A stretch of DNA of 24,887 nt. Source: a virus. The stretch is taken from positions 1-24,887 of the IMG/VR virus record IMGVR_UViG_3300031673_000449; one strand, given 5' to 3'. Of the stretch, positions 1-24,887 are shown piece after piece. The notes under the pieces are model-generated. The model searched no databases and was not told the DNA's origin. It was given only the letters and a program-made list of their open reading frames with translations. Position 1 is the first letter of the stretch. The number at the start of each line of letters is the position of its first letter. The position numbers and the translations under genes were made by a program.

Positions 1-1368
1 TTTGATTAATTTAATATCCTGGAAACGGTTAAGTCCACCACCAGTTCTCTTGCTTGACCTATACTTTACATAACCAGCAGAAGTATATGGGTCTTCAAGT
101 CTCTTCGTTCCTAATCTATCAGCAATAACATAAGAACTGAAATCACCGCAAGCTAAACCTTTCTTGCTTGCTACTAATGTTGCAGTACCATTTGTTATTG
201 AAGCCATTGCTGGAACATAGTCAGAAATAATAACTGGTCTACCATATAATGTTCTTCCATAACCTGTTGCAATCATAGCTGGACTTAATAGATAATCAGT
301 TGAAGAATCTTTCATTCTTAAAATGGTTCTCCATAATAGCGGACTTGTTAAATACTTAGCATTTGTCTGAGCTCTTGTTGGAAGAGTTTCAAAGGCATCA
401 ATTATCATATCTGCGAGATTTGTAAAGTTGGTTGCAATTGTCTCTGCTTCCAATTTTCCTCTTTCATAAATACGAGTAGTTGTCCAAGTATCATAAGCAA
501 AAATTCCTTTTGGCTTGTCATTGTTTCCATCACCAATCATAAAGTCTTCTTCTTGTGCTAAAGAGAAAGCTTCTTCTGTTTTACGATTAATCCAAGAAAC
601 TATATCAATTGCAGAATCTTCAAGCATCTTTGTCGTAATAACTGGCTCTGCGAAATATTCTCCAGCTTTAATTGATACTTTACCAAAACTTGATGTTGCT
701 GTAGCAGTTCTTGTTCCTTCTTCTCCAGGATTCAAAATTGCAAACAATCCATCATCAATTGGGAAATCAATACTTTCAGCGGAAATATTTATTACATTTG
801 CTGAATTTCTAAAGGCTAAAGAAGCAAATTCCCTGCTTTGTACAGCACCTATCTGTGCTGGTAAAGCAACATATCCACCATCTGGATTTACACCTTCTCT
901 AAGAGTTTTGAAGTCTAAGACTGGCATAGAACCAATGCTGTTAGAAGCATCCAAAAGATTTTGTTTCATCTTTTGTATATCTTCTTTATTGCCGTTAATT
1001 ACGCTTTTTTCAGCATATAAATTAGCAGCTTTTTCAAATACTTCAGCATTAATTAAATGATTTTTATGTCTTAATTTAGAATCAAGTTCTTTTACATAAT
1101 CAGCAATTACTTGTGCTTCTACTTCTTTCAAGTTAAGATTTTGTGATTTAGCGTCAAATAAAGAATCTACAATTACTTTTTCAGCTTTTTTTGCTTCTAA
1201 AGCATCTTCAATTTTTTTAAGTTGTACATCAGTTTTTTCAAACTGTGCATTTACATTTTCTGCAAACGATGCTATTTCAGATTCTGAACGATTTTTTTCT
1301 GATTTGAAATCGTTAAGAGCCTGTACAGCAGTTGCAAGACCTTCTTGAAGGCTTTTTACATCTTCCAT
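1..1368 (-). CDS. Major capsid protein, HK97 fold (partial, runs off left edge)
   Basis: Builds the icosahedral head shell. The reading frame is open without a stop for 456 codons to the window edge; the last visible residues (NRFQDIKLIK) look like the usual C-terminal strand of HK97-type capsid proteins, so few residues are probably missing. Residues 1 to about 125 are charged and helical (coiled-coil-like, rich in E/K/A) and resemble the delta (scaffold) domain that the prohead protease removes. Around residues 277-289 is the family signature GDGNNDKPKGIF, followed by the usual S-P-x-x-W-x-x-I and G-R-P-V regions. The ATG start has GGAG upstream, lying in the last codons of the protease gene, whose stop codon is one base away, so the two are translationally coupled. 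Basis: direct translation plus family knowledge; no comparison search was run. Confidence 0.95.
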   Translation of the reverse strand, partial: MEDVKSLQEGLATAVQALNDFKSEKNRSESEIASFAENVNAQFEKTDVQLKKIEDALEAKKAEKVIVDSLFDAKSQNLNLKEVEAQVIADYVKELDSKLRHKNHLINAEVFEKAANLYAEKSVINGNKEDIQKMKQNLLDASNSIGSMPVLDFKTLREGVNPDGGYVALPAQIGAVQSREFASLAFRNSANVINISAESIDFPIDDGLFAILNPGEEGTRTATATSSFGKVSIKAGEYFAEPVITTKMLEDSAIDIVSWINRKTEEAFSLAQEEDFMIGDGNNDKPKGIFAYDTWTTTRIYERGKLEAETIATNFTNLADMIIDAFETLPTRAQTNAKYLTSPLLWRTILRMKDSSTDYLLSPAMIATGYGRTLYGRPVIISDYVPAMASITNGTATLVASKKGLACGDFSSYVIADRLGTKRLEDPYTSAGYVKYRSSKRTGGGLNRFQDIKLIK

Positions 1369-1369
1369 A

Positions 1370-2284
1370 TTAATCTCCGTTGTTTTGTTTATTAATTATA
1401 GAATTAATCCCACTGATTAATTCCTTACACTGTTTTTTAAATTCCTCTGGAATTTCAATACTTTTTGCTTCAACTTTTTCCTCTGGAATTTCAGTTTTAG
1501 CAATTGTTTCGTTTATATTAGATTTCTCTTCTAAAGGTATATCTACTATTTCAATATCTTTTTCAGCGTCATCTATATTCTCATTTTTCATATCATCTTC
1601 TTCTTTAGGTTTAGCTTTTAATTCAGCTAATCTACTATAGAAAGTTTTAAGCTCATTGTTAGTGCAATGGAAGTCCTTACTCTTTAAAGCTTTATCAAAA
1701 TCTTTCATTGACCATTTACTAATAAGTTCGCTTTGATTTTGTTTTGCTTCATTTTCTATTTCAGGTTCTATATCAGCATCTTCCCGGGCTTCTACATCCT
1801 TTTCTAATTCTTTATCATCTATACTAATATTTTTAACACTTGTTATATTTGCTAACTCATTTGCAGGAAAGGTAACTACGGATATTTCCCATAAATCTAC
1901 TTCTTTTAATATCTGCGCATATTCCTCTTCTGTTTCTGTTATAGTTCTATACCCAATAGAAAGTCCGTCTATAGCTCCCGCCTTTAACATTTGGTAAACA
2001 TCAGCACCTTTAGATGTATTAATAAGTATTTTACCTTTACAATATAAACCATTTTCGTCTTCTCTTATTTCTTCCCAAACGCCTATTGGCTCATATGAAT
2101 CGTGTTGCCAAAGTAATTTGACTTTCTTTGCTGGTTTTTTCATTAAAGACTTTGTAAAAGCACCCTTTTGGACTATATCGTCATAAGAGTCTTTATTACC
2201 AAATATAGAACCATATCCTTCTATAGTTCCTGTATCATCTAACTGTTTGATTTCTAGTTTGAAGTCTAATGTTTTATTTTTCAT
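1370..2284 (-). CDS. Prohead serine protease with long acidic C-terminal tail
   Basis: Maturation protease of the HK97/U35 (S78) type that cleaves the capsid delta domain inside the prohead. It starts with the typical substrate-side strand (GTIEGYGSIFGNKDSYDD), then His61 in LLWQHD and Ser109 in GLSIGYR, the two expected catalytic residues, then DLWEISVVTFPAN, also conserved in this family. The protease domain ends near residue 155. The remaining 150 residues are very rich in E, K, D and I and include a helical stretch (SMKDFDKALKSKDFHC) resembling the short C-terminal helix found in many prohead proteases, then a further unstructured-looking acidic segment. That tail makes the protein longer than the usual 180-230 residues; it may serve as an internal scaffold (inference). 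It is immediately followed by the capsid gene. Confidence 0.93.
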   Translation of the reverse strand: MKNKTLDFKLEIKQLDDTGTIEGYGSIFGNKDSYDDIVQKGAFTKSLMKKPAKKVKLLWQHDSYEPIGVWEEIREDENGLYCKGKILINTSKGADVYQMLKAGAIDGLSIGYRTITETEEEYAQILKEVDLWEISVVTFPANELANITSVKNISIDDKELEKDVEAREDADIEPEIENEAKQNQSELISKWSMKDFDKALKSKDFHCTNNELKTFYSRLAELKAKPKEEDDMKNENIDDAEKDIEIVDIPLEEKSNINETIAKTEIPEEKVEAKSIEIPEEFKKQCKELISGINSIINKQNNGD

Positions 2285-2314
2285 AGATTTGTTATGTAGT
2301 TAAATTTCTTTAAT

Positions 2315-2359
2315 TATTACCTTTTAACACGAATGATAAGGTGTATGGAAGACCTGTTG
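2315..2359. repeat. 45-bp direct repeat, left copy (remnant of the gp48-like gene)
   Basis: This stretch matches positions 5280-5324 at 44 of 45 bases, in the same orientation; the single difference is A at 2336 versus G at 5301. Read on the minus strand in the frame of the gp48-like gene it gives TGLPYTLSFVLKGN and then, after one more codon, a TAA stop. It therefore looks like the 3' end of a tail gene stranded upstream of the protease. It lies just left of the promoter of the plus-strand methyltransferase, at the border of that cargo segment. Confidence 0.9.
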
Positions 2360-2370
2360 AGAAAAAACAC

Positions 2371-2398
2371 TTGACAATTAAATTTATATCTATATATT
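2371..2398 (+). promoter_or_regulatory. Sigma-70-type promoter of the methyltransferase
   Basis: A perfect TTGACA is followed after 16 bases by TATATT; transcription would begin near 2405, about 78 bases before the start codon. The bases TTGACAATTA after the -35 box are the same as in the promoters at 24019 and 24584, which use the same 16-base spacing. The leader that follows (2406-2482) is GC-richer than its surroundings and contains GTCAAG (2436-2441) and CTTGAC (2455-2460), which can pair around a 13-base loop and could be a leader hairpin or an operator. Confidence 0.7.
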
Positions 2399-2410
2399 CT
2401 TATATGGGTA

Positions 2411-2440
2411 GTTACACAATTCTTACGGGGGGAGTGTCAA
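2411..2440 (-). promoter_or_regulatory. Possible minus-strand promoter for protease and capsid genes
   Basis: On the minus strand TTGACA (2440-2435) is followed after 18 bases by TGTAAC (2416-2411), which matches the -10 consensus at 4 of 6 bases. Transcription would start near 2404 and run into the protease gene. A separate promoter would make sense because the bidirectional hairpin at 3250-3294 should stop transcription coming from the fibre gene. It faces the plus-strand promoter at 2371-2398, so the two would interfere. The -10 box is weak. Confidence 0.3.
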
Positions 2441-2482
2441 GCCTGCCCACCTTACTTGACTATATTAATAAAAGGTATTAAA

Positions 2483-3247
2483 ATGAGTACGAAAAAAAGA
2501 ATCAAAAATCTTGAATTAAAAATCAAAGAATTAAAAGCAACAATTGAGTATGATAATAATATCATATTTAAATATTTGACTGAAGGGATTGAATTACATC
2601 CATCTTATTGTTTAGAAAGACTTGTAGTTTCTGATTATAAAGAAATAAAAAATAATCCTAATCTTCCAATATGGTATTATGAGCATTTTAATAGGTATGA
2701 CTTTGCAAAAGAATTAATTAAAAAAGATGATAATGTTTTAGATATTGCTTGTGGAACTGGTTACGGTTCACATCTAATAGCTGAAGAAACAGAAGCACAA
2801 CAAGTATTAGGTGTTGATATTTCTGAAACTGCAATTAATTTTTGTAAAAAAATGTGCAAGAATAGTAATTTGAGTTTTAATGTTGGAAATGCTTTAGATA
2901 ATCAATTCTTTTCTGCGTCTTCTTTTAATAAAATTATATCCTTTGAAACATTAGAACATGTTAGGGAAAGTGATTTAAAAATAATGTTAAAAAATTATTA
3001 TAAGTGGTTGAAAAAAGGTGGAACATTTATTGGTTCAACACCAAATGAAGAAGGGCGTCCATTATATCAAAATGGTAAACATACAAATATTCACCATTTT
3101 AAACATTATACAAAAGAAGAAATTGAAAAAATATTATTAGATTGTGGATTTTTAAATATTGAAATCATATATCAAAATAATGCTATTATCTCATCAAAAA
3201 ATAAAAGAAATGATTCAGATTATTTTGTAGTAATAGCAAAAAAATAG
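2483..3247 (+). CDS. Class I SAM-dependent methyltransferase (glycan-locus type)
   Basis: Likely transfers a methyl group from S-adenosylmethionine to a small or glycan substrate. Residues 1-30 are a charged, coiled-coil-like helix. Residues 44-80 (ERLVV, EHFNRYDFAKELI) resemble the segment that precedes the fold in methyltransferases of polysaccharide gene clusters. Motif I is VLDIACGTGYG at 85-95, GVDIS follows at 110-114, and ISFETLEHV (152-160) is motif IV-like. HHFKHYTKEEI (204-214) is typical of the C-terminal part. The chosen ATG has AAAGG seven bases upstream; an in-frame TTG at 2456 lacks such a site. This gene is on the opposite strand to all its neighbours, has its own promoter and terminator, and is visibly richer in A and T than the fibre gene, which suggests later acquisition. 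Modification of the host surface or of the tail fibre is inference; the substrate is unknown. Confidence 0.85.
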   Translation: MSTKKRIKNLELKIKELKATIEYDNNIIFKYLTEGIELHPSYCLERLVVSDYKEIKNNPNLPIWYYEHFNRYDFAKELIKKDDNVLDIACGTGYGSHLIAEETEAQQVLGVDISETAINFCKKMCKNSNLSFNVGNALDNQFFSASSFNKIISFETLEHVRESDLKIMLKNYYKWLKKGGTFIGSTPNEEGRPLYQNGKHTNIHHFKHYTKEEIEKILLDCGFLNIEIIYQNNAIISSKNKRNDSDYFVVIAKK

Positions 3248-3249
3248 AT

Positions 3250-3294
3250 TATATTGAGTAATTGTTGGTAAACTATCAACAATTACTCAATATA
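3250..3294. terminator. Bidirectional terminator hairpin between convergent genes
   Basis: An 18-bp perfect inverted repeat (3250-3267 with 3277-3294) encloses a 9-base loop that can itself extend the stem by up to three pairs. It begins two bases after the methyltransferase stop and ends two bases before the stop of the convergent fibre gene. There is no strong T run on either side and the stem is AT-rich, so efficiency is uncertain, but its position exactly between two convergent stops supports a terminator. Confidence 0.75.
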
Positions 3295-3296
3295 TA

Positions 3297-5210
3297 CTAA
3301 AAATAGTTTCTATAGTCTTGGTATCCTTTTGTATAAAATTTTAATGTGTTATTTATAGTTGACGAAGTAACTTCGTAAACAATTTGCGATGAAGTATTTA
3401 GTTTTATATACTTTTGCATATTTGGATACCTTTCGGCATCTCCTCTACTGTTTAAATCTTCAAATCCAGCACCTCTAGTTGCTACAGATAATCCAACGCT
3501 ACTAAAATTAACTCCTAAACTGTCTCCAGTTCCACTTCCTGCCGCTATTGAGCCGAGAACTTTAGCTCTAAGAGGTAACCCAGAGGGAGCACTTAAAGTT
3601 AAATTGATACTTCCAGCGACGGCAGGGTTGGAAGCATTTAAATCAAGTATATCAGATACATAATTTATTTCTATTCCACCTGACGGTAAAACTTCTCCTT
3701 CAAAGTCATATAAATCACCACTAGCATCAGTTTTAAAACTTGCAATTCTTCTATAAGCTAATGCATTCCTTATATCTCCGATAGTTGGAGTTAAAGAATC
3801 TTCAACATGCCAAGCTTGATCAGTTGCTCTTTGGTATCTATATACATGGTAAGTTGTATCTCCAGTTAAAGCCCCACCAAATTCAGTAGGAAGATTTAAG
3901 TCTGTAGTTGCTCCTGCTTCTATTATTGTCATACCATCTTCACAGATAGCTTTTCCTGCTGTAACATCTATTTCTTCGTCTGTATCAGACCCACTTGATG
4001 AGACAAAACCATATATATAATATTTATCACGTATGTTAGCATTATCTAATAGAGAATCAGCTATTTCAAGCCAGATATTAGAACCGATACATATTAAATC
4101 TAATATATCTCCATTCCTCATATAAATATCTTGATTAGCTGTTAAATTAATTTTAGATTCATTATGTGCAATAGTTATTGTATATCCTGTTCCGCAATAG
4201 ATTGTTAATCTATCACCAGCTATCCCTCCAGTGATATCAGTTAAGGTATCTGCTGCCGCTCCTTCACCTGTAATAGATGTAGCATATCCTGTATATGCTA
4301 TAGCTCCGGAAGAAATCGCTTGCGAGGTAATTTGAGTATTAAATTTATTATTAATTTGTAAATCATCCACTTCAATAGTAGCTCCTCCAATAGTATTCCA
4401 CGCACTACCATTATATAATTTCAATGAATCAGTGTCCTCATCAAAAGCTAACATTCCATCCTCTGCATCTATCTCATACCATCTATAAGGAGTGCCATCA
4501 TCGTATAATTGATATATTTTATTCTCTGTTACAGCCGTATCAGTTCCAGCCCCAACATATCCGTCAGATATTACCCCAGTTGTTGTGTTTATATATTTAT
4601 ATCCTATTGTACTTGCAACAGGAGCGGAAGCTGTAAAGTCTAAAGTTTCTTTAATATTAAATTTTCCTACCAATCCTTCTACCTCGTCAGAAGAAAGTGT
4701 TCTCTTAAGAATTGCGATATTATTTGCTAAGTCTAAATGAACTGATATAATATCATCAGCCACTATATCTCCAACATCCAAGTCAATTAATTGTCCATTC
4801 ATATTTAATTTTTTAAATACAACAGCTGAGTTTGTGTTTAATTGAAACTGGACATTATTACTTTGGTTTGCAGCGGAAGCCTTAAAGAAGAAAGAACCTT
4901 CTATAAATGTAGTTGGGATTTTCATAGATGTTGTTACGGCTGCAACTGGTCTAATAGCAATATATAAGTCGGCAGCACCACTGTGAGATGACCCAGCGCT
5001 TTCTATAAACATATTAGCCATAGCATATCTTGAAACAGATTTAGAAACCTGTGAGGTATCAGAATCTGTTGGAGTTATTCCAACATTATTAATGATTGTT
5101 TGTATCTCTGTACAGGATTGCGTAGCATCTAGTGCGTAATATTGATTAACTTCAGCTGGAGTTCCGCCTGCTGGTAAATCTACTTTAGGTAATGTTGAAA
5201 ATTTAGCCAT
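3297..5210 (-). CDS. Tail fibre protein
   Basis: Probable receptor-binding tail fibre. The N-terminus (about residues 1-70) has the PAGGTPAEVNQYYAL and DSDTSQVSKSVSRYA patterns typical of the baseplate-attachment end of Mu/P2-type fibres. The rest is rich in S, T, G, A and short beta strands, as in fibrous proteins. Residues about 185-275 (GYVGAGTDTAVTENKI, then DTDSLKLYNGSAWNTIG) resemble the small surface-binding modules found in phage fibres that end in YNGSAW. The end (about 510-637) is again beta-rich and does not match a chaperone domain I recognise. Its start overlaps the end of the gp48-like gene by eight bases. It is the last gene of the tail operon and converges on the plus-strand methyltransferase. 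No separate fibre assembly gene is seen. Confidence 0.85.
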   Translation of the reverse strand: MAKFSTLPKVDLPAGGTPAEVNQYYALDATQSCTEIQTIINNVGITPTDSDTSQVSKSVSRYAMANMFIESAGSSHSGAADLYIAIRPVAAVTTSMKIPTTFIEGSFFFKASAANQSNNVQFQLNTNSAVVFKKLNMNGQLIDLDVGDIVADDIISVHLDLANNIAILKRTLSSDEVEGLVGKFNIKETLDFTASAPVASTIGYKYINTTTGVISDGYVGAGTDTAVTENKIYQLYDDGTPYRWYEIDAEDGMLAFDEDTDSLKLYNGSAWNTIGGATIEVDDLQINNKFNTQITSQAISSGAIAYTGYATSITGEGAAADTLTDITGGIAGDRLTIYCGTGYTITIAHNESKINLTANQDIYMRNGDILDLICIGSNIWLEIADSLLDNANIRDKYYIYGFVSSSGSDTDEEIDVTAGKAICEDGMTIIEAGATTDLNLPTEFGGALTGDTTYHVYRYQRATDQAWHVEDSLTPTIGDIRNALAYRRIASFKTDASGDLYDFEGEVLPSGGIEINYVSDILDLNASNPAVAGSINLTLSAPSGLPLRAKVLGSIAAGSGTGDSLGVNFSSVGLSVATRGAGFEDLNSRGDAERYPNMQKYIKLNTSSQIVYEVTSSTINNTLKFYTKGYQDYRNYF

Positions 5211-23458: not shown

Positions 23459-24022
23459 ATGAAAAAAACATTAATAGACCAATCAATTCCATTAGAAGCA
23501 CACACATCTTATCCAGCGTGGTCGCATAGAATGGCAAACAACATAATTACAATAGACGGAGTCCAATATCAGAAATGCGTTAAATGTGGAGAAACTAAAC
23601 CACTATCTGAGTTTTATAGTTATTTCTATTACACAAATAAAAAAGAGAGAAAAAAGAAATATAAAAACTCTTGTAAAAAATGCCATATAAAAGTTGTAAT
23701 GGAAAAAAGAAACTCAGATATAAAATTCGTTAAATTACATAATTTATATAATGCAAATGTAAAATTAAAAAAACAAGATAGAGCAGGTGAACAAGATAAA
23801 AGACCTTATTTAAAATATATATGGCAAAAAAGTAAAGAGGCTGGGTTACTTCACGATATTAGAAATGAATTAAAAAAAGGAGTAGAAAGAAAAGAAAAAC
23901 AGCGTCCATACTCTAACAAACATAATAAAATAATAGCTAAAAAAGTACGTGAAGAAAAAAAATTATTACATACAATAGAACAACAAGAAATTCTTGATGT
24001 GCTTTCAGAAATTAACACTTGA
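23459..24022 (+). CDS. Zinc-ribbon protein, possible degenerate HNH-like protein
   Basis: 187 residues. Two CxxC pairs, Cys40-Cys43 (KCVKCGETKPLSEFY) and Cys72-Cys75 (SCKKCHIK), 28 residues apart, form a zinc ribbon; the K-P-L-S-E-F-Y after the first pair is very typical of the ribbon in front of HNH endonucleases. The remaining part is lysine-rich and helical and contains no H-N-H triad that I can find, so it may be a DNA-binding remnant or another regulator. The start codon follows the methyltransferase stop after two bases; no good ribosome-binding site. Its stop codon lies within the -35 box of the next promoter. Confidence 0.7.
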   Translation: MKKTLIDQSIPLEAHTSYPAWSHRMANNIITIDGVQYQKCVKCGETKPLSEFYSYFYYTNKKERKKKYKNSCKKCHIKVVMEKRNSDIKFVKLHNLYNANVKLKKQDRAGEQDKRPYLKYIWQKSKEAGLLHDIRNELKKGVERKEKQRPYSNKHNKIIAKKVREEKKLLHTIEQQEILDVLSEINT

Positions 24023-24046
24023 CAATTAATTTTAGTTATATAGAAT
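24019..24046 (+). promoter_or_regulatory. Sigma-70-type promoter of the secreted protein
   Basis: TTGACA, 16-base spacer, TAGAAT; transcription would begin near 24053, before the start at 24080. It shares CACTTGACAATTA with the promoter at 2371 and both boxes and spacing with that at 24584. The -35 box contains the stop codon of the zinc-ribbon gene. Confidence 0.72.
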
Positions 24047-24079: not shown

Positions 24080-24340
24080 ATGAAAAAACTAATATTCTTT
24101 TTATTAATCTTATCTTTTCCAATTAACTCTAATGCAAATTGTATAGTAAAACTACATAGCCCTGAAATGCCGAGAATGTGGGAAACTACCTATTGCCCAG
24201 TTGAAGGTGAGGATGGATGTTATAGATTTTTTACTTACCCAGCACAATTTGAAATCAATATGTGTCCGGGAAATCAAGAAGTAGAAATCATCCCGATGAC
24301 AAAGAAGCGGGAATCATACCAAATTAAACCAATGGAATGA
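24080..24340 (+). CDS. Small secreted four-cysteine protein
   Basis: Function unknown. The first 20 residues are a classical signal peptide: KK, a hydrophobic core LIFFLLILSF, then INSNA with likely cleavage after Ala19. The mature part is about 67 residues with cysteines at 21, 39, 47 and 62, enough for two disulphide bonds, so it probably functions in the periplasm or outside. Cys21 is not in a lipoprotein box (preceded by NAN). Own promoter and no Shine-Dalgarno sequence. Stop overlaps the next start (ATGA). Could act in superinfection exclusion or be a lysogenic conversion factor (inference). Confidence 0.7.
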   Translation: MKKLIFFLLILSFPINSNANCIVKLHSPEMPRMWETTYCPVEGEDGCYRFFTYPAQFEINMCPGNQEVEIIPMTKKRESYQIKPME

Positions 24341-24583: not shown

Positions 24584-24611
24584 TTGACAATTAAGATATA
24601 GAGCGTAGAAT
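24584..24611 (+). promoter_or_regulatory. Sigma-70-type promoter of the structured RNA candidate
   Basis: TTGACA followed after 16 bases by TAGAAT, the same two boxes and spacing as at 24019. Transcription would start near 24618. The only ATG of the open frame that follows (24610) overlaps the -10 box, so it would not be in the transcript. Confidence 0.72.
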
Positions 24612-24617
24612 GGTTTT

Positions 24618-24775
24618 ATCAGTAAAAGGTAATTTCTTTGAAAGGTCAGATAAGGTCAGTGTACCGAGGCTTGCAAGGTCAGGACTATCTCCGTTTCCGA
24701 TGGAGACCTTGCCGACTAGGGTTGTTAGCTGTCAAAGCTATTCGGTAGTCTTCTTCGGAAGGTTTGTAACAGTTG
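24618..24775 (+). ncRNA. Candidate structured non-coding RNA
   Basis: About 50 % GC between 24643 and 24766, against roughly 30 % in adjoining genes and under 20 % just after it. Elements read by eye: an outer stem of seven pairs (24662-24668 with 24741-24747, two of them G-U or equivalent); inside, hairpin A of eight perfect pairs (24673-24680 with 24705-24712), continued by a six-pair inner stem after a nine-base bulge; hairpin B, TAGCT with AGCTA (24726-24730, 24736-24740) stacked on the outer stem; and after the junction CTTC-TTCG-GAAG (24750-24761), a stable UUCG tetraloop. GACTA (twice) and TAGTC could form an alternative pairing. No SD sequence, and the frame across it uses AGG and CCG codons rare elsewhere. 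No known family recognised. Confidence 0.55.
24642..24682 (+). repeat. Three copies of AAGGTCAG
   Basis: The octamer AAGGTCAG occurs at 24642-24649, 24652-24659 and 24675-24682, the first two exactly ten bases apart. Each contains AAGGTC, which can pair with GACCTT at 24705-24710, so in RNA they could compete for one partner; in DNA they could be binding sites on one face of the helix. Confidence 0.7.
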
Positions 24776-24781
24776 AATTTA

Positions 24782-24816
24782 TTTTATAAAATATTATAAA
24801 AAGACTTTATTTTTTT
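24782..24816 (+). terminator. Possible weak terminator after the RNA candidate
   Basis: TTTTATAA (24782-24789) pairs with TTATAAAA (24794-24801) around a four-base loop, and a run of seven T follows at 24810-24816. The stem has only A-T pairs and the T run is eight bases away, so this is weak evidence. Confidence 0.35.
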
Positions 24817-24887
24817 ATATATTAATTATTATTAACGAGAACCAAGTTAATAAAAAAAGTTTTTACTAAAATACCCTGAGTTTCAGG
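24817..24887. other. AT-rich spacer to the window edge, no gene seen
   Basis: No open frame of note. At the very end CCTGA (24875-24879) and TCAGG (24883-24887) form a five-pair hairpin with a three-base loop that may continue beyond the window. Confidence 0.5.

Follow-up and report, generated by a model that had tools for sequence, protein, structure and literature searches.

The RNA of type III toxin-antitoxin systems (ToxI) is arranged as a promoter, repeats and a terminator. Its repeat unit is 36 nt long (PMC12373285). In the phage-encoded AbiF system of C. difficile, the toxin gene is directly preceded by a SigA promoter, an RNA of 132 nt and a terminator (PMC12373285), and the DRT9 RNA is found directly before its reverse transcriptase (PMC12483538). 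Prophages and phages also carry small regulatory RNAs, for example the Pas sRNAs of E. coli (PMC13192938).

A locus at the right end of the phage record studied here invites comparison with each of these systems. Like the abiF RNA (RF03085), of which RCd22 of a C. difficile prophage is an example, the candidate is phage-borne and falls within 100-200 nt, with its own sigma-70-type promoter, a repeated short motif and a terminator-like end (PMC12373285). However, its repeats are 8 nt long, whereas those of the abiF RNA are stem-loops of 33-37 nt, no AbiF gene is present in the window, and the Rfam model of abiF RNA gave no match, the lenient threshold included. The order of promoter, repeats and terminator is that of ToxI, but the candidate carries three irregularly spaced 8-nt copies instead of repeats of about 36 nt that are each a unit, and the window contains no toxin gene. 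Like the RNAs of DRT2, DRT9 and retrons, it would be a structured RNA that has its own promoter and may stand directly before a missing gene (PMC12483538); unlike them, it is accompanied by no reverse transcriptase in the window, has no Rfam match and shows no sign of template features. As a short phage RNA near a contig end it also resembles the template RNA of a diversity-generating retroelement (DGR). The DGR template idea was rejected, as no variable-repeat copy differing mainly, or specifically, at adenines was found in the window. The likeness to the Pas sRNAs (PMC13192938) is that of a short non-coding transcript on a mobile element, which in the present case is putative; no sequence relation was found.

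Our preferred explanation, to which we assign a probability of about 0.5, is that the locus is an accessory ('moron'-type) unit whose product is a small non-coding RNA, standalone and about 195 nt long. Host RNA polymerase would start at about position 24618, independently of the leftward late genes, and the stem AGAUAAGGUC/GACUUUAUUU would shape the RNA into a multi-branched fold with its 3' end at the T run. Acting in trans, the RNA may then reach a host target by base pairing or protein binding, most likely via its three AAGGUCAG copies; the AAGGTCAG repeats are the most obvious candidates for target contact. The features of the locus are listed in Table 1.

Table 1. Features of the candidate RNA locus, in coordinates of the window
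Feature	Position	Strand	Basis
Sigma-70-type promoter TTGACA-N16-TAGAAT, extended -35 TTGACAATTAA	24584..24611	+	11/12 consensus matches
59-codon open frame, judged non-coding	24610..24789	+	Start codon inside -10 box; codon scores poorest of frames compared; neither family nor tblastn match
Candidate non-coding transcript, about 195-199 nt	24618..24816	+	Placement between promoter and T run; no coding signal in any frame
GC-rich core, 48.5% GC	24640..24775	+	GC reached by 0.5% of windows of 136 nt
Three exact AAGGTCAG repeats at 24642, 24652 and 24675	24642..24682	+	No other exact copies in window
Predicted closing stem AGAUAAGGUC (24648-24657) / GACUUUAUUU (24803-24812) around core	24648..24812	+	Pair probability up to 0.77
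Hairpin with perfect 8-bp stem GCAAGGTC (24673-24680) / GACCTTGC (24705-24712), inner hairpin	24673..24712	+	Predicted fold
Possible UCUUC-UUCG-GAAGG tetraloop hairpin	24749..24762	+	Competes with longer pairing in best fold
Putative weak termination site: AT-only 8-bp hairpin (24782-24801), T7 run (24810-24816)	24782..24816	+	Read from sequence and fold

The window, i.e. the whole virus record of 24,887 bases, is likely a fragment of the genome of a tailed phage. Its minus strand carries the late genes of a contractile-tailed phage, encoding the terminase large subunit, portal, tail sheath, tape measure, baseplate proteins, head protease and major head protein, and its plus strand carries short accessory units, including one for a SAM methyltransferase (about 2483-3247). 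The plus-strand genes at the right end comprise an unknown gene, a DNA methylase, an endonuclease-VII-like gene, a short secreted-looking protein and a 79-aa unknown, and the RNA candidate is the final item before the contig stops at 24887, 71 bases past the T run. Based on its terminase, portal and head protein, the phage is isolated: all matches of these proteins were below 60% identity, and those among the matches listed were at about 23-32% (50,697 phage records).

The initial annotation described a good promoter common to two other cargo genes, and our analysis bears this out. The promoter of the candidate is near-consensus, and a twin at 24019-24046 also matches 11 of the 12 consensus bases. 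The extended motif TTGACAATTAA-N11-TAKAWT occurs at 24584-24611, 24019-24046 and 2371-2398, i.e. three times in the window compared with none in 100 shuffles, a count for which the final bases of the pattern were fixed after the three sites had been seen; the exact 11-mer and the constant 16-base spacer across the three promoters are clear by themselves. Each of the three sites precedes a plus-strand accessory unit. The candidate has one trait of a moron-type unit, a promoter of its own, opposite to or independent of the minus-strand late genes; this is a sequence match and not a mapped start. A near-consensus promoter with two siblings argues for the standalone RNA, and the motif provides a concrete promoter signature with which to find accessory units in this phage lineage.

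Two observations concern the siblings themselves. At 2371-2482, the same promoter type is followed by a leader of approximately 80 nt with a GC-rich patch, ACGGGGGGAGTGTCAAGCCTGCCCACC, before the SAM methyltransferase gene; this leader folds no better than shuffles and has a weak DUF2815 RNA match (E 0.077, below threshold). Behind the twin promoter, 24080-24340 encodes a protein of 86 aa whose start resembles a signal peptide and which contains several cysteines; neither a family nor a phage relative was found for it.

The 59-codon frame across the candidate had been described as starting in the -10 box and using atypical codons, and both points are confirmed. Its synonymous-usage score (-0.002) was the lowest, with 27 other genes at 0.13 to 0.36, as was its coding log-odds (-0.229), with other genes at 0.036 to 0.461. 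A small protein gene of 59 codons could be argued from the frame being open across 180 bases and from a GAG six bases 5' of the ATG. However, since this ATG sits inside the -10 box, a transcript from this promoter would begin after it and exclude it, the codon scores are the poorest of the frames compared, and no relative of the product was found, either as a family in Pfam, PHROGs or PADLOC or by tblastn among phages. We consider a protein gene highly unlikely, and the idea was dropped on the grounds of codon use and start position. Only one other plus-strand frame of at least 20 codons was found around the candidate, of 36 codons and with a TTG start. Codon statistics, the position of the ATG and the missing relatives of the product thus make an RNA more likely than a protein, as had been proposed initially.

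The boundaries of the presumed transcript are placements and not mapped ends, with the start set about 7 nt past the -10 box and the end at the T run. Within it, the GC-rich stretch that had been noticed in this AT-rich phage is evident over 136 nt (24640-24775), with 48.5% GC, whereas windows of the same size average 31.9% (sd 5.3%) and the contig has about 32%; 0.5% of such windows are as high as the core, the others among this 0.5% being in coding sequence. This jump in GC, together with the lack of a coding signal and of a protein relative, favours the standalone RNA, as do the three repeats, which occur only here in the window. The copies are irregularly spaced (10 and 23), and any of them could pair with GACCTT (24705-24710) and, via one G-U, with GACTTT (24803-24808). 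The AT-only hairpin and T run at the presumed end of the RNA are both present, but they do not form a canonical terminator, with the T run starting 8 nt past the hairpin and a terminator scan finding no terminator on the plus strand. The closing stem, which finishes at the T run, supports the standalone RNA, while the non-canonical terminator counts against it.

The best predicted fold of the presumed transcript has an energy of -48.2 to -48.5 kcal/mol. Its closing stem is AGAUAAGGUC/GACUUUAUUU, the 3' arm of which reaches into the T run, and within the fold lie the 8-bp hairpin, a long arm from 24725 to 24776 and the AT hairpin. The perfect 8-bp stem GCAAGGTC/GACCTTGC was found as it had been drawn by eye, with pair probabilities mostly 0.65-0.73 and 0.38 at the innermost pair in a fold of 24612-24822. 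The sequence of the proposed UUCG tetraloop hairpin is also present, but its formation is rivalled by longer pairing in the best fold. The three-way junction of the initial annotation was not supported by energy: it reaches -43.4 kcal/mol compared with -48.2 for the best fold, i.e. 4.8 kcal/mol worse. At a distance of about 2 kcal/mol or less from the best fold there are several others of very different shape, one reason being that the three AAGGTCAG copies can vie for the GACCTT and GACTTT partners. A cloverleaf-like shape with a 7-bp UACCGAG/UUCGGUA stem and three arms was seen in the constrained fold, which is 4.8 kcal/mol above the best, but it was not recognised as a tRNA.

Compared with shuffled sequence, folding gave a z of -1.87, and of -1.63 to -1.80 for whole-transcript ends. 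The GC-rich core with flank (24648-24776) reached -0.76, and a z of -2.87 was obtained solely for 24648..24812, the ends of which were picked after the fold had been seen; overall, z spans -0.3 to -2.87 depending on the ends chosen. Of 550 windows scanned across this phage, 14 scored at or below the fold-optimised window (z -2.87). Structure beyond chance is not confirmed by these values: with whole-transcript ends the candidate folds only slightly better than shuffled sequence, and a fold energy this near to it, with several folds competing, speaks against the standalone RNA. As modelled here, single-sequence folding neither proves nor excludes a structured RNA.

These values also bear on two readings in which no RNA is required. 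The region could be a DNA element near the terminase end that serves in packaging, replication or recombination, with a protein binding its palindromes and AAGGTCAG repeats in double-stranded form. Consistent with this, direct repeats lie within 41 bases, the two strands differ little in how well they fold relative to shuffles (z -2.87 for the plus and -2.46 for the minus strand), and the large terminase gene is 2.2 kb away, with the candidate upstream of it. Yet the region lies directly 3' of an accessory-type promoter, the plus-strand fold is 12 kcal/mol stronger in absolute terms, via G-U pairs, and the repeat spacing is irregular, and we regard a DNA site as improbable. Decayed or chance sequence, the functionless remains of imported host DNA behind a promoter, would agree with the lack of relatives, the weak folding z and the poor codon fit. 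Against it, the promoter matches two functional-looking siblings, and in phage genomes an intact near-consensus promoter is rarely followed by 230 idle bases; we find this reading about as doubtful. Both are less likely than a standalone RNA or the leader considered next.

The contig end, 71 bases past the T run, counts against the standalone RNA, since readthrough into a gene is possible there. The main alternative is that the candidate is the 5' leader of a gene past 24887, in which case its structured part would control that gene through attenuation, or would also be the RNA partner of the encoded protein, as happens in AbiF, type III toxin-antitoxin and DRT modules. The succession of promoter, structured RNA, weak T run and contig end would suit such a leader, as would the weakness of the terminator, and the RNAs of AbiF (PMC12373285) and DRT9 (PMC12483538) offer precedents located directly before their protein genes. 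However, no Rfam match to abiF RNA or any other family was found, the final 98 bases contain no plus-strand ATG start codon, and no plus-strand frame of 20 codons runs off the contig end. The sole listed frame there is leftward (24822-24887, minus strand), so that the next gene would be convergent. A leader is possible, though on balance unlikely, and the 71 bases 3' of the T run, with no plus-strand start of a new gene, favour the standalone RNA. More specifically, the candidate could be one half, the RNA, of a new RNA-protein module for defence, counter-defence or toxin-antitoxin function. The module would be phage cargo, its protein gene would lie just past the contig end, and the RNA would represent a family with no relation to those of Rfam; we hold this proposal to be improbable. 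The leftward frame, open from the contig end to a stop at 24822 (21 codons), may be the last part of a convergent gene. Adjoining it at 24828-24852 is a perfect 8-bp palindrome, TTATTAAC/GTTAATAA, and a CCTGA/TCAGG hairpin is located at the very end of the contig.

Searches for relatives agree with the earlier view that the candidate belongs to no recognised family. Rfam 15 gave 0 matches in the window at curated thresholds, and a lenient search of the region returned just rli49 (E 0.95, other strand) and an 11-base end match. ARAGORN found no tRNA or tmRNA in the window. Nothing was found by blastn of the candidate against phages, plasmids and E. coli genomes, nor by exact 17-20-base core patterns in IMG/VR. 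Pairs of AAGGTCAG occur in at least 120 stretches of IMG/VR, and among the matches listed none extends to the RNA. The one pattern match in GTDB genomes, 28 bases in a GC-rich Verrucomicrobia stretch with no extension, was judged to be chance. The terminase yielded no relatives from the single sequence; its alignment gave 80 loci at 23-27% identity, and the DNA methylase gave 17, none of them with the RNA, these 97 related records having been read as whole records. No relatives were found through the 79-aa gene. Because no homologue was found, the fold is without covariation or conservation support, which is a further point against the standalone RNA; absence from the phage, plasmid, E. coli, IMG/VR and GTDB collections searched is not absence in nature. 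An antisense role, one of the functions suggested initially, is disfavoured for the phage genes in the window, as the longest complementarities to them were equal to those of shuffled RNA.

Taken as a whole, most of the initial sequence description is correct, and the locus is a credible orphan phage RNA candidate. If real, it would be a further small RNA that is carried by a phage and lacks known relatives, encoded in an accessory unit that has its own promoter. Host takeover and defence are frequent functions of such units. Taken by itself, with neither homologue nor transcript, the candidate opens no long-standing question.

Two further observations were made at the other end of the window. 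In 1-5210, the head protease and major head protein genes come after the tail-fibre region and not after the portal gene, which is an unusual gene order for a tailed phage. Additionally, a near-perfect 21-bp AT-rich hairpin at 3235-3310, between the convergent ends of the methyltransferase gene (plus strand) and a tail gene (minus strand), is the strongest local fold in the window (z -9.4) and is very probably a two-way terminator.
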